From: Gallionella sp.
GTDB taxonomy: Bacteria; Pseudomonadota; Gammaproteobacteria; Burkholderiales; Gallionellaceae
Length of the DNA: 64,000 nucleotides
Direction of reading: 5' to 3'
NCBI GenBank assembly: GCA_013043965.1
Contig: JABEVF010000082.1
Coordinates: 1-64,000, forward strand
Position numbers and translations under genes: made by a program. The notes below the pieces were generated by a model, which worked only from the letters and a program-made list of their open reading frames with translations, had not been told where the DNA came from and made no database searches. Every line of letters begins with the position of its first letter. Position 1 is the first letter of the stretch. Shown piece after piece: positions 8,009 through 13,862 of the stretch.

Positions 8009-10576
<2,568 letters not shown>

Positions 10577-10580
10577 ACCT

Positions 10581-11768
10581 ATGTTGATCGGACAATCACA
10601 ACTGCTAGCATTGCTTTCTGATATGGAGTCGGATCGTGTTGAGCGCACGATTTCAATTTCCAATACGGATAAGTTTGCTGAGGCGATTTGTGCTTTTTCG
10701 AATGATTTCCCTAATCATCGTCAGTGCGGATATTTGCTGATTGGTGTGAATGACGATGGCAGTTTGTCAGGCCTTGAAGTAACTGACGCATTGCTATTAA
10801 AACTGGGGGCGATTCGCTCGGATGGAAATGTGTTGCCATCTCCCGCGATGAGTGTGCAAAAGTTTTGTTTGAATGGTGGCGACGTTGCTGTGGTTGAAGT
10901 ATTGCCCTCAGATATGCCACCCGTGCGTTACAAAGGGCGTGTCTATATTCGCGTTGGGCCGCGTAAGGCGGTTGCGAATGAGCAAGAAGAGCGCGTGCTT
11001 AGTGAGCGGCGCACTGCTGCGGTTCGTTCTTTTGATGCGCGCCCTTGCATCGAGGCAAAATTGGAAGACTTGGCGTTAGGGCAGTTCGACGCTTATCGCC
11101 GGGAGGCTGTAGATGCCGACACTATCGCGGCCAATCACCGTGGCATTGAGCCGCAACTTGCTTCGTTAAGAATGTACGACTTGGAGCGCGCCTGCCCGAC
11201 ATTTGCCGGGATTTTGTTGTTTGGTAAAAATCCCCGGTTCTTTTTACCGGGGGCATACATCCAATATCTCAAATTGCCCGGCATGGGTTTAACCGACATC
11301 CCGGAAGATCAGGCGGAAATATCGGGCGACTTGAATTCGATGTTGCGCGAACTGGAGTTAAGAGTTAAGTCGTTTGTTCAAACCTCAATGCGTCAAATTA
11401 ATGCGTTGGAGGAACGGTTGTTGCCGGACTATCCCGAGTGGGCGTTGCGTGAATTGTTGATGAATGCAGTCATGCACCGTAATTATGAAAGCAACACGCC
11501 GGTTCGTTTTTATGTCTTCAGCGATCACATTGAGATTCAGAGTCCAGGCGGACTTTATGGTGAAGCTACAGCGAGTAACTTTCCGACGCGTAATAGTTAC
11601 CGCAATCCGGTGATCGCCGAGGCAATGAAGTCGCTCGGGTTCGTTAATCGTTTCGGTTATGGTGTGCAACGCGCACAGACATTGCTAAAGGAAAATGGCA
11701 ACCCACCTGCCGAGTTTGAGTTCGACGAGCATGCGGTATTGGTCAAAATATACCGGAGGGCGGCATGA
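10581..11768 (+). CDS. Schlafen-type AlbA_2 domain ATP-binding protein with C-terminal HATPase_c_4/RecG-like module
   Basis: N-terminal KFAEAICAFSNDFPNHRQCGYLLIGVNDDGSLSG; YKGRVYIRVGP; C-terminal ALRELLMNAVMHRNYESNTPVRFYVFSDHIEIQSPGGL. Confidence 0.8.
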   Translation: MLIGQSQLLALLSDMESDRVERTISISNTDKFAEAICAFSNDFPNHRQCGYLLIGVNDDGSLSGLEVTDALLLKLGAIRSDGNVLPSPAMSVQKFCLNGGDVAVVEVLPSDMPPVRYKGRVYIRVGPRKAVANEQEERVLSERRTAAVRSFDARPCIEAKLEDLALGQFDAYRREAVDADTIAANHRGIEPQLASLRMYDLERACPTFAGILLFGKNPRFFLPGAYIQYLKLPGMGLTDIPEDQAEISGDLNSMLRELELRVKSFVQTSMRQINALEERLLPDYPEWALRELLMNAVMHRNYESNTPVRFYVFSDHIEIQSPGGLYGEATASNFPTRNSYRNPVIAEAMKSLGFVNRFGYGVQRAQTLLKENGNPPAEFEFDEHAVLVKIYRRAA

Positions 11769-12763
11769 AAACGATAGCCTTTTTTAATAACAAAGGCGGC
11801 GTGGGGAAAACCTCCTTGGTGTATCACTTGGCTTGGATGTTTGCAGATAAAGGAATTAAGACACTCGCGGTTGATCTTGATCCTCAGGCAAACTTAACGT
11901 CCATGTTTTTGCGCGAAGATCGCCTAGAGCAACTGTGGCCAGATGATGAGCATCCCAATACGATTCACGGTGCTATTAACCCCATATTGCGTGGTGTCGG
12001 GGATATAGCTAAGCCACATGTAGAGAAAATCGCCAAAAATATTGGCTTGGTTGCTGGTGATCTTGGGTTGTCTAAGTTTGAAGATTCTCTTTCAGAAAAT
12101 TGGCCGAAATGTTTGGATGGCAAGCCAGATGCATTTCGCGTGATTACTGCTTTCCACCGGATTATTTTGCAGGCGGCAGAAGATGCAACAGTGGTGTTGA
12201 TTGATGTAGGGCCAAATTTGGGGGCGATTAATCGTTCAGCTTTGATTTCTGCCGAACAGGTTGTGATTCCATTGGCACCAGACTTGTTTTCGCTGCAAGG
12301 CTTGAAGAATCTTGGGCCATCACTCAGGGAATGGCGTGCTGGATGGACAAAACGCTTAGCTGAATTACCAAAGAATGAGAATATCAGCGTGCCTTCTGGT
12401 GGTATGCAGCCATCTGGGTACGTGGTAATGCAACACGGCATTCGTGACAGTCGGCCTGTAAAGGCCTACCAGCGTTGGCTGGATAAGATGCCTGCAGTTT
12501 ATAGGCAAGCTGTGTTGGGCGAGTCGTTTACAAGTGCCATTCCGAGCCCAGAAGATGACCCATATAAATTGGCCTTGTTGAAGCATTATCGCAGCCTCAT
12601 GCCGATGGCAATGGAAGCGAATAAGCCGATGTTTTTTCTTAAGTCAGCGGATGGCGCCATAGGCGCTCATCAAGAAGCCGTTTCGCTTTGCTACAAAGAC
12701 TTTGAGAAACTGGCAGCGAAAATAGCCGCTAACGCAGGGGTTGCGTTTCCGAAAAATAAATAA
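11765..12763 (+). CDS. ParA/MinD-family ATPase (AAA_31-like)
   Basis: Deviant Walker [48 protein letters not shown]; start overlaps upstream stop (ATGA). Confidence 0.88.
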
Positions 12764-12779
12764 GTGGAGAGTAAGTGAA

Positions 12780-13862
12780 ATGACGATTTATAACTTCAGC
12801 GCGGGCCCTGCAGTGTTGCCTAGGGAAGTGTTGCTGCAAGCGCAGGCGGAGATGTTGGACTGGCACGGCAGCGGCATGTCGGTGATGGAGATGTCGCATC
12901 GCGGCAAGGAATACATGAGTATCCATGCCCAGGCCGAAGCCGATCTGCGCGAGTTGATGGCCATTCCCGCCAATTACAAGGTGCTGTTCCTGCAAGGCGG
13001 CGCGCATCTGCAATTTTCGATGATTCCGCTGAACTTGTTGCGCGGCAAGCTCTCCGCCGATTACATCAACACCGGCGAATGGTCGAAGAAGGCCATAGCC
13101 GAAGCGAAGAAATTCAGCCATGTGAACGTGGCGGCGGACAACTCTGATAAGAAGTGCACTTACGTGCCGGCATTCGATACCTGGAAGCTGGATAAGGATG
13201 CGGCTTATGTGCATTACACGCCGAACGAGACCATAGGCGGGGTCGAGTTCAACTGGGTGCCGAATACCGGCGAGGTGCCGCTGGTGGCGGACATGTCGTC
13301 CAACATCCTGTCCCGCCCTGTCGATGTGTGGAAGTTCGGCCTAATCTATGCGGGCGCGCAAAAAAATATCGGCCCGGCGGGTTTGACTATCGTTATTGTG
13401 CGCGAGGACCTGGTCGGTCATGCCAACCCGGCTTTGCCGACGATGCTGGACTACAAGATCCATGCGGACAACGATTCCATGTATAACACGCCGCCCACTT
13501 ACGGCATCTATATGGCCGGCCTGGTGTTTCAATGGCTGAAGAAGAACGGCGGCATCGGTGCGATGGAGAAGAACAACATCGCCAAGGCCAACCTGCTCTA
13601 TACGGCCATCGACAACAGCAACGGTTTTTACAGTTGCCCGGTGAGCAAGGTGGATCGCTCGCGCATGAACGTGCCGTTCACGTTGAAAGACGCTGGCTTG
13701 GATGGCGATTTCCTGAAGCAGGCGGATGCGCGCGGTTTGTTGCAACTCAAGGGGCACCGCTCGGTCGGCGGCATGCGCGCGTCCATCTATAACGCGATGC
13801 CCATCAACGGTGTGCAAGCTCTCGTCGATTTCATGGGCGAATTCGCCAAGAAGAACGCCTAG
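12780..13862 (+). CDS. serC: phosphoserine aminotransferase
   Basis: [45 protein letters not shown]. Confidence 0.96.

Follow-up and report, generated by a model that had tools for sequence, protein, structure and literature searches.

Organization of the gyrA–serC locus

The stretch of DNA analysed here (the window) comprises 64,000 nucleotides of a Gallionella sp. contig (JABEVF010000082.1, positions 1 to 64,000), in which two genes, ORF1 and ORF2, lie between gyrA and serC and encode a Schlafen/AlbA_2 protein and a ParA-type ATPase, respectively (Table 1). A gap of 4 nt separates the gyrA stop (10576) from the ORF1 ATG (10581), the ORF1 stop (11768) and the ORF2 start (11765) overlap as ATGA, and a gap of 16 nt follows the ORF2 stop (12763) up to the serC ATG (12780). 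The GC content is about 0.46–0.53 in the cassette versus 0.55–0.62 in the flanks. A preliminary description of this DNA had recognised a two-gene cassette filling the gyrA–serC gap, joined by an ATGA overlap and richer in AT than its neighbours; the ORF coordinates and the GC values confirm these features, and Pfam matches for both ORFs bear out the AlbA_2/HATPase and ParA-type identities that it had assigned.

A search for sigma-70-like promoters between 10300 and 13000 found none, and the space from gyrA to ORF1 has no terminator-like site on the + strand. Read-through from gyrA would accordingly be the simplest source of the ORF1–ORF2 transcript. The genes around ORF2 (gyrA, the AlbA_2 gene, and serC) include no ParB-type gene, and neither a transposase nor an integrase forms part of the cassette.

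Table 1. Features of the gyrA–serC locus and additional AlbA_2-HATPase genes of Gallionella genome G000.
Feature	Position	Strand	Basis
gyrA, upstream host gene, likely transcript source	8009..10576	+	ORF call; promoter-like site absent between
ORF1, SLFN_AlbA_2 + HATPase_c_4, 395 aa, predicted Schlafen-type RNase effector	10581..11768	+	Pfam, AF2, Foldseek
SLFN_AlbA_2 domain of ORF1, residues 16-130	10626..10970	+	Pfam
HATPase_c_4 (GHKL) domain of ORF1, residues 306-389	11496..11747	+	Pfam
ORF2, ParA-type ATPase, 332 aa, branch-specific C-terminal region	11765..12763	+	
ParA/AAA_31 ATPase core of ORF2	11765..12334	+	KGGVGKT Walker A, D37/D39, D147
C-terminal part of ORF2 (roughly residues 200-332), by which the effector-paired ParA branch is recognised	12362..12760	+	
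serC, downstream host gene	12780..13862	+	ORF call
Additional AlbA_2-HATPase relative L067	G000:C132:8703-9713		
Additional AlbA_2-HATPase relative L068	G000:C136:17189-18283		

The Schlafen/AlbA_2 protein and the ParA-type ATPase

The Pfam matches of ORF1 are to SLFN_AlbA_2 (1.7e-16) and HATPase_c_4 (2e-16), and the best solved match of its AF2 model (pLDDT 87.5, pTM 0.61) in Foldseek is DIP2311 (3lmm) from Corynebacterium diphtheriae, followed by weak but consistent matches to SLFN12, SLFN14, SLFN11, SLFN13, and the rSAMD9 tRNase. Two glutamates, E16 (codon 10626) and E21 (codon 10641), are invariant in 75/75 sequences and have the same 5-residue spacing as E205 and E210 of SLFN13, mutants of which are inactive (PMC5862951). 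The third carboxylate, corresponding to D248 of SLFN13, is probably D58 (codon 10752), a tentatively assigned position occupied by D in 67 and by N in 7 of the 75 sequences; spacing alone would point to D59, but this residue varies, and D58 was preferred. Moreover, N295, H299, R300, G323, G359, and G361 are conserved in or around the GHKL domain. The predicted effector encoded by ORF1 is quite likely to be an RNase. Elsewhere in the same genome, G000, lie two further genes for AlbA_2-HATPase relatives, with identities of about 28%, and no ParA relative was found near either of them.

ORF2 matches AAA_31/ParA in Pfam (5.9e-30), and its structure model (pLDDT 93, pTM 0.92) has DIP2308 (3pg5), also from C. 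diphtheriae, as its best solved match, so that DIP2308 and DIP2311 are the nearest solved structures to ORF2 and ORF1, respectively. DIP2308 is itself a full-length member (E=4e-71) of the effector-paired branch of ParA proteins considered below. ORF2 covers positions 1-328 of the model of this branch, including the region past residue 200; the two remaining ParA proteins encoded in this genome match only as far as about position 191, and a C-terminal region of the ORF2 type is absent from the canonical ParA proteins of relatives. DIP2308 and DIP2311 are uncharacterised proteins of the same species with locus tags three apart, and may belong to one cluster.

Occupancy of the site in the genus

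Among the 63 genomes of the genus in which the site was readable, the pair is located between gyrA and serC in 10 (G000, G010, G014, G024, G028, G029, G061, G072, G081, and G084; two of these ten sites are at contig ends) and the site is empty in 53, with a gyrA–serC gap of ≤260 bp in all 53. The pair is an accessory cassette, because occupied sites number 10 versus 53 empty ones and the closest relative, G073 (gyrA 95%), is among the empty. These counts agree with the insertion between gyrA and serC that had been proposed initially, and the accessory-cassette idea survives the comparison of synteny, in which the pair is not present at the locus in all relatives.

On the gyrA tree, presence and absence of the pair require 8 changes, of which well-supported branches impose at least 5, and genome G016 carries the pair at another locus, its own gyrA–serC site being empty. 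Among the copies at gyrA–serC, AlbA_2 and ParA each fall into two lineages, which occur in three combinations; therefore, alleles of the two genes have been exchanged at the site. The copies in the genus share one site, as gain, loss, and allele exchange would lead one to expect, and mobility of the cassette as a discrete element is not supported. Recent transfer, considered for the window lineage and G010, is not supported either, since identity at four-fold sites is about 45% for the pair, below the value of about 58% for gyrA/serC.

Many empty gyrA–serC sites contain a long hairpin of short repeats, such as GGATTGA/TCAATCC (e.g., in L077, L079, and L069), with fold z-scores of -7.2, -3.0, and -2.8 in three empty-site examples. 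The cassette genomes appear to have no such hairpin between gyrA and serC, as though a site could carry either one or the other.

Pairing of the two genes beyond the genus

A scan of GTDB with one genome per species retrieved 321 relatives of the ORF2 ParA. In the best 80 of these 321, which were examined, an AlbA_2 gene (broken in a few cases) lies directly upstream of the ParA gene in 80/80, and most of these loci are elsewhere than between gyrA and serC. Judged from record titles, the best 80 represent about ten phyla, including Pseudomonadota, Desulfobacterota, Chlorobiota, Nitrospirota, Myxococcota, Acidobacteriota, Spirochaetota, Cloacimonadota, Latescibacteria, and Lentisphaerae. The gene order and the 4-nt overlap are the same in 73/78 related loci and, thus, the ATGA overlap is more than chance.

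Occurrence is patchy, the AlbA_2 gene being present in 16/397 genomes of the phylum and 14/369 of the class. In these two samples, an intact AlbA_2 gene is followed by an intact ParA gene in 26/26 cases, and no intact AlbA_2 gene was seen without an intact ParA among the 26 intact copies. Intact ParA genes do occur beside broken AlbA_2 genes (L222/L349 in G303, L228 in G184, L158, L161, L203, and L204); in G303, a transposase-like frame precedes the 3' part of a split AlbA_2 gene. Such an asymmetry is expected for an antitoxin and a toxin, although the broken copies are few and frameshifts in metagenome-assembled genomes could mimic some of them. Protein distances of AlbA_2 and ParA are correlated across 61 loci outside gyrA–serC (r = 0.79, equalled in 0/2000 permutations), a value that still includes shared ancestry. 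ORF1-type and ORF2-type genes are, in short, an obligate pair. The co-occurrence at many different loci that the preliminary description had proposed to survey was found, and its suggestion that the AlbA_2 protein is the partner of ParA holds, given the obligate pairing and the absence of ParB.

At L235 (G117), positions 1489-2484 encode a branch ParA with a changed Walker A lysine (GGVGTTS) beside an apparently broken AlbA_2 gene, which looks like a decayed copy.

A ParA branch with exchangeable partners

Across genomes, plasmids, phages, and viral contigs, 199 full-length members of the branch to which ORF2 belongs were gathered, and the partner totals depend on how the loci were collected. 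The adjacent partner is AlbA_2 in 96, SIR2 in 29, RelA/SpoT in 15, HEPN in 12, and a cyclase-like protein in 2, and no partner was recognised in 45/199, mostly in prophages. The AlbA_2 partner is always upstream of ParA (96/96), whereas the SIR2, RelA/SpoT, HEPN, and cyclase-like partners are all downstream, mostly overlapping or a few nucleotides away; thus, the regulatory logic may differ between the Schlafen effector and the others. In the phylum sample, 26/28 branch members have an effector (17 AlbA_2, 3 SIR2, 3 HEPN, 2 RelA/SpoT, and 1 cyclase-like). Pfam searches on representatives identified SIR2_2, HEPN_RiboL-PSP, and RelA_SpoT beside distant full-length ParA relatives of plasmids and phages, the HEPN_RiboL-PSP partner being found in phage Pf1 and a related phage. 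Effector motifs are kept in the consensus sequences, namely RRNxIxHE in HEPN, NfD and HG in SIR2, and EiQVRT in RelA/SpoT, and the SIR2 partners are closest to the SIR2 domain of ThsA. The Schlafen pair itself was not detected on plasmids, where ORF1 had no match at 1e-30.

In the tree, the branch is set apart from canonical ParA at 100/100, and effector labels track its clades, with 11 changes versus 64 for shuffled labels. RelA/SpoT partners occur in two separate clades, and HEPN partners in a sister clade. As a control, 23 ParA loci from relatives were inspected; 22 match the ATPase core only, with a toxin-type neighbour at 0/22 of these canonical loci, and the single full-length ParA (L008) has a RelA/SpoT neighbour. 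The occurrence of SIR2 (a probable NADase), HEPN RNase, and RelA/SpoT in related switches indicates that the ATPase is the constant part and the warhead the exchangeable one. This pairing with several other effectors is the strongest support for reading ORF1–ORF2 as an effector and its switch, an idea that had been raised before in a form that did not include the branch and that is now strengthened by it.

Textbooks present ParA ATPases as proteins of DNA partition and positioning. ORF2 shares with ParA/Soj/MinD ATPases the fold, the motifs, and the deviant Walker A, and its distant relatives are found on plasmids and prophages, so a partition or positioning system with a non-ParB partner, serving a mobile element or the chromosome, was considered. 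However, the cassette has no ParB and lies on the chromosome, in one case flanked by housekeeping genes; the branch stands apart from canonical ParA and has its own C-terminal region; and the partners are enzymes typical of toxins. A partition function for ORF2 was rejected on the absence of ParB and the separation of the branch, and such a system is highly improbable.

Proteins with AlbA_2 and HATPase_c_4 domains are often annotated as RecG-C-like regulators. The pair could be non-toxic and regulatory, with the AlbA_2-HATPase protein binding nucleic acids and ParA positioning or titrating it, for instance to tune gyrA–serC or local genes. The location in a housekeeping operon and the existence of the C132 and C136 relatives without ParA in G000 fit this possibility, which seems unlikely when set against the invariance of the nuclease glutamates over 75 sequences, the SIR2, HEPN, or RelA/SpoT enzymes beside sister ParA proteins, and the placement of most loci outside gyrA–serC.

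Several further observations concern the branch. The downstream proteins of 223-244 aa at L249:2539-3270 and L315:7062-7730 resemble nucleotide cyclases by eye and have no Pfam match. Branch ParA genes without an effector are frequent in prophages and viral contigs (e.g., L305-L308 and L326-L332), and in the P22-like phage ST160 (L207) one lies two genes from the c2 repressor; these effector-less prophage proteins possibly act in antitoxin-like counter-defence or in regulation. In filamentous Pf-type phages, ParA-HEPN pairs lie beside the attachment site in Pf1 (L215, 3995-5546) and beside the integrase gene in Pseudomonas phage WX-TY (L212, 2676-4308), positions where accessory cargo is expected.

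Proposed function and defence context

The obligate pair, with its exchangeable effectors, conserved key residues, and patchy occurrence, can be read with moderate confidence as a two-gene module of the toxin-antitoxin or abortive-infection type, in which a ParA-type ATPase acts as the switch of a Schlafen RNase. That ParA controls the effector is very probable. ORF2 would respond to a cue or to its own nucleotide state and, probably through contacts of its C-terminal region with the partner, would either hold ORF1 inactive or trigger it. ORF1, an AlbA_2 nuclease fused to a GHKL ATP-binding domain, would then cut tRNA or other RNA and halt translation, and translational coupling may balance the products of both genes. 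The most likely role of the module would be to defend against phages or other mobile DNA in the manner of a toxin-antitoxin or abortive-infection system, phage defence as such having about an even chance of being the role. The preliminary description had suggested anti-phage or plasmid-interference machinery, and an anti-phage activity is plausible. Several features speak against the module as proposed: the AlbA_2 protein is larger than a classical toxin and has an ATP-binding domain of its own, the Schlafen partner is upstream of ParA and the other partners downstream, D58 is replaced by N in 7/75 sequences, 45 members of the branch have no recognised partner, defence genes lie near some copies only, and the broken copies behind the asymmetry are few.

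PADLOC v2 has no system model for the pair, and its cross-hits, to pAgo-associated and PDC-M28B models, were all partial. Its background is non-zero, since control ORFs of the window also match (e.g., UvrD to GajB), and match counts were for this reason set aside as proof of a defence island. The evidence of neighbouring genes for a defence role is mixed: some loci adjoin Hma components (HmaB in L166 and HmaA in L187), a type III MTase, or AbiD; others adjoin recA/recX or other housekeeping genes, or lie in the gyrA–serC operon.

A pure addiction-type toxin-antitoxin pair, which maintains itself and brings no benefit to the host, would also consist of two overlapping genes, have a patchy distribution, and show gains, losses, and exchanged alleles at a single site, and the fact that the intact effector was never found without ParA in 26 intact copies agrees with it. 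Multiple losses at gyrA–serC would, however, show that loss of the cassette is possible; typical antitoxins are smaller and less conserved than ParA; and the known defence genes HmaB and HmaA adjoin some copies. Selfish maintenance alone is rather doubtful.

Relation to known systems and significance

HerA-SIR2, HerA-DUF4297, and PARIS (AriA-AriB) are two-gene defence systems of an ATPase and an effector (PMC12839542 and general background), like the ORF1–ORF2 pair, and HerA/FtsK and OLD-ABC are ATPase superfamilies other than ParA. Also related to the pair are the HEPN-ParA/Soj dyads, for which a toxin-antitoxin role has been proposed, ParA being the antitoxin (Anantharaman et al. 2013, PMC3710099); in these dyads, a ParA/Soj-like ATPase gene likewise adjoins an RNase toxin gene. 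The HEPN family there is MAE_18760, whereas the HEPN partners found here match RiboL-PSP, and the partner at gyrA–serC is an upstream Schlafen AlbA_2 protein and not HEPN; the available part of that article describes no ParA partnered by SIR2, RelA/SpoT, or Schlafen. The dyads of 2013 and the HEPN class found here (in Pf1-type phages and elsewhere) are probably of one kind.

Bacterial Schlafen defence (Taboada et al. 2025 bioRxiv, cited in PMC12839542) is said to involve tRNA cleavage and aborted infection and shares with the present pair a Schlafen/AlbA_2 RNase, often with GHKL, near defence loci, but no ParA partner is mentioned in the available part of the citing article. The Panacea and D29-AAA hub antitoxins of the NetFlax network (PMC10440598) similarly combine a constant neutralising domain with many unrelated toxins; these hubs are, in contrast, DUF4065 or OLD/ABC-type AAA ATPases, and ParA is absent from the main text of that article. 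A literature search outside preprints found no report of Schlafen-ParA, SIR2-ParA, or RelA/SpoT-ParA pairs or of an anti-phage ParA, with the exception of the 2013 HEPN-ParA dyads.

Extending the switch reading to the whole ParA branch, as a general immune or toxin switch for at least four unrelated effector types (Schlafen RNase, SIR2, HEPN RNase, and RelA/SpoT synthetase) whose effector-less prophage copies would be antitoxin-like counter-defences or regulators, is a proposal evenly balanced between being right and wrong. If true, the ParA branch would be a common switch for interchangeable toxic enzymes and, thus, a new class of regulator in bacterial immunity and toxin-antitoxin biology, and many orphan genes annotated as 'ParA family protein' on plasmids and prophages would be explained. 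Moreover, the pair would provide a simple two-gene test bed for the restraint of Schlafen nucleases, which are common to vertebrate antiviral proteins.
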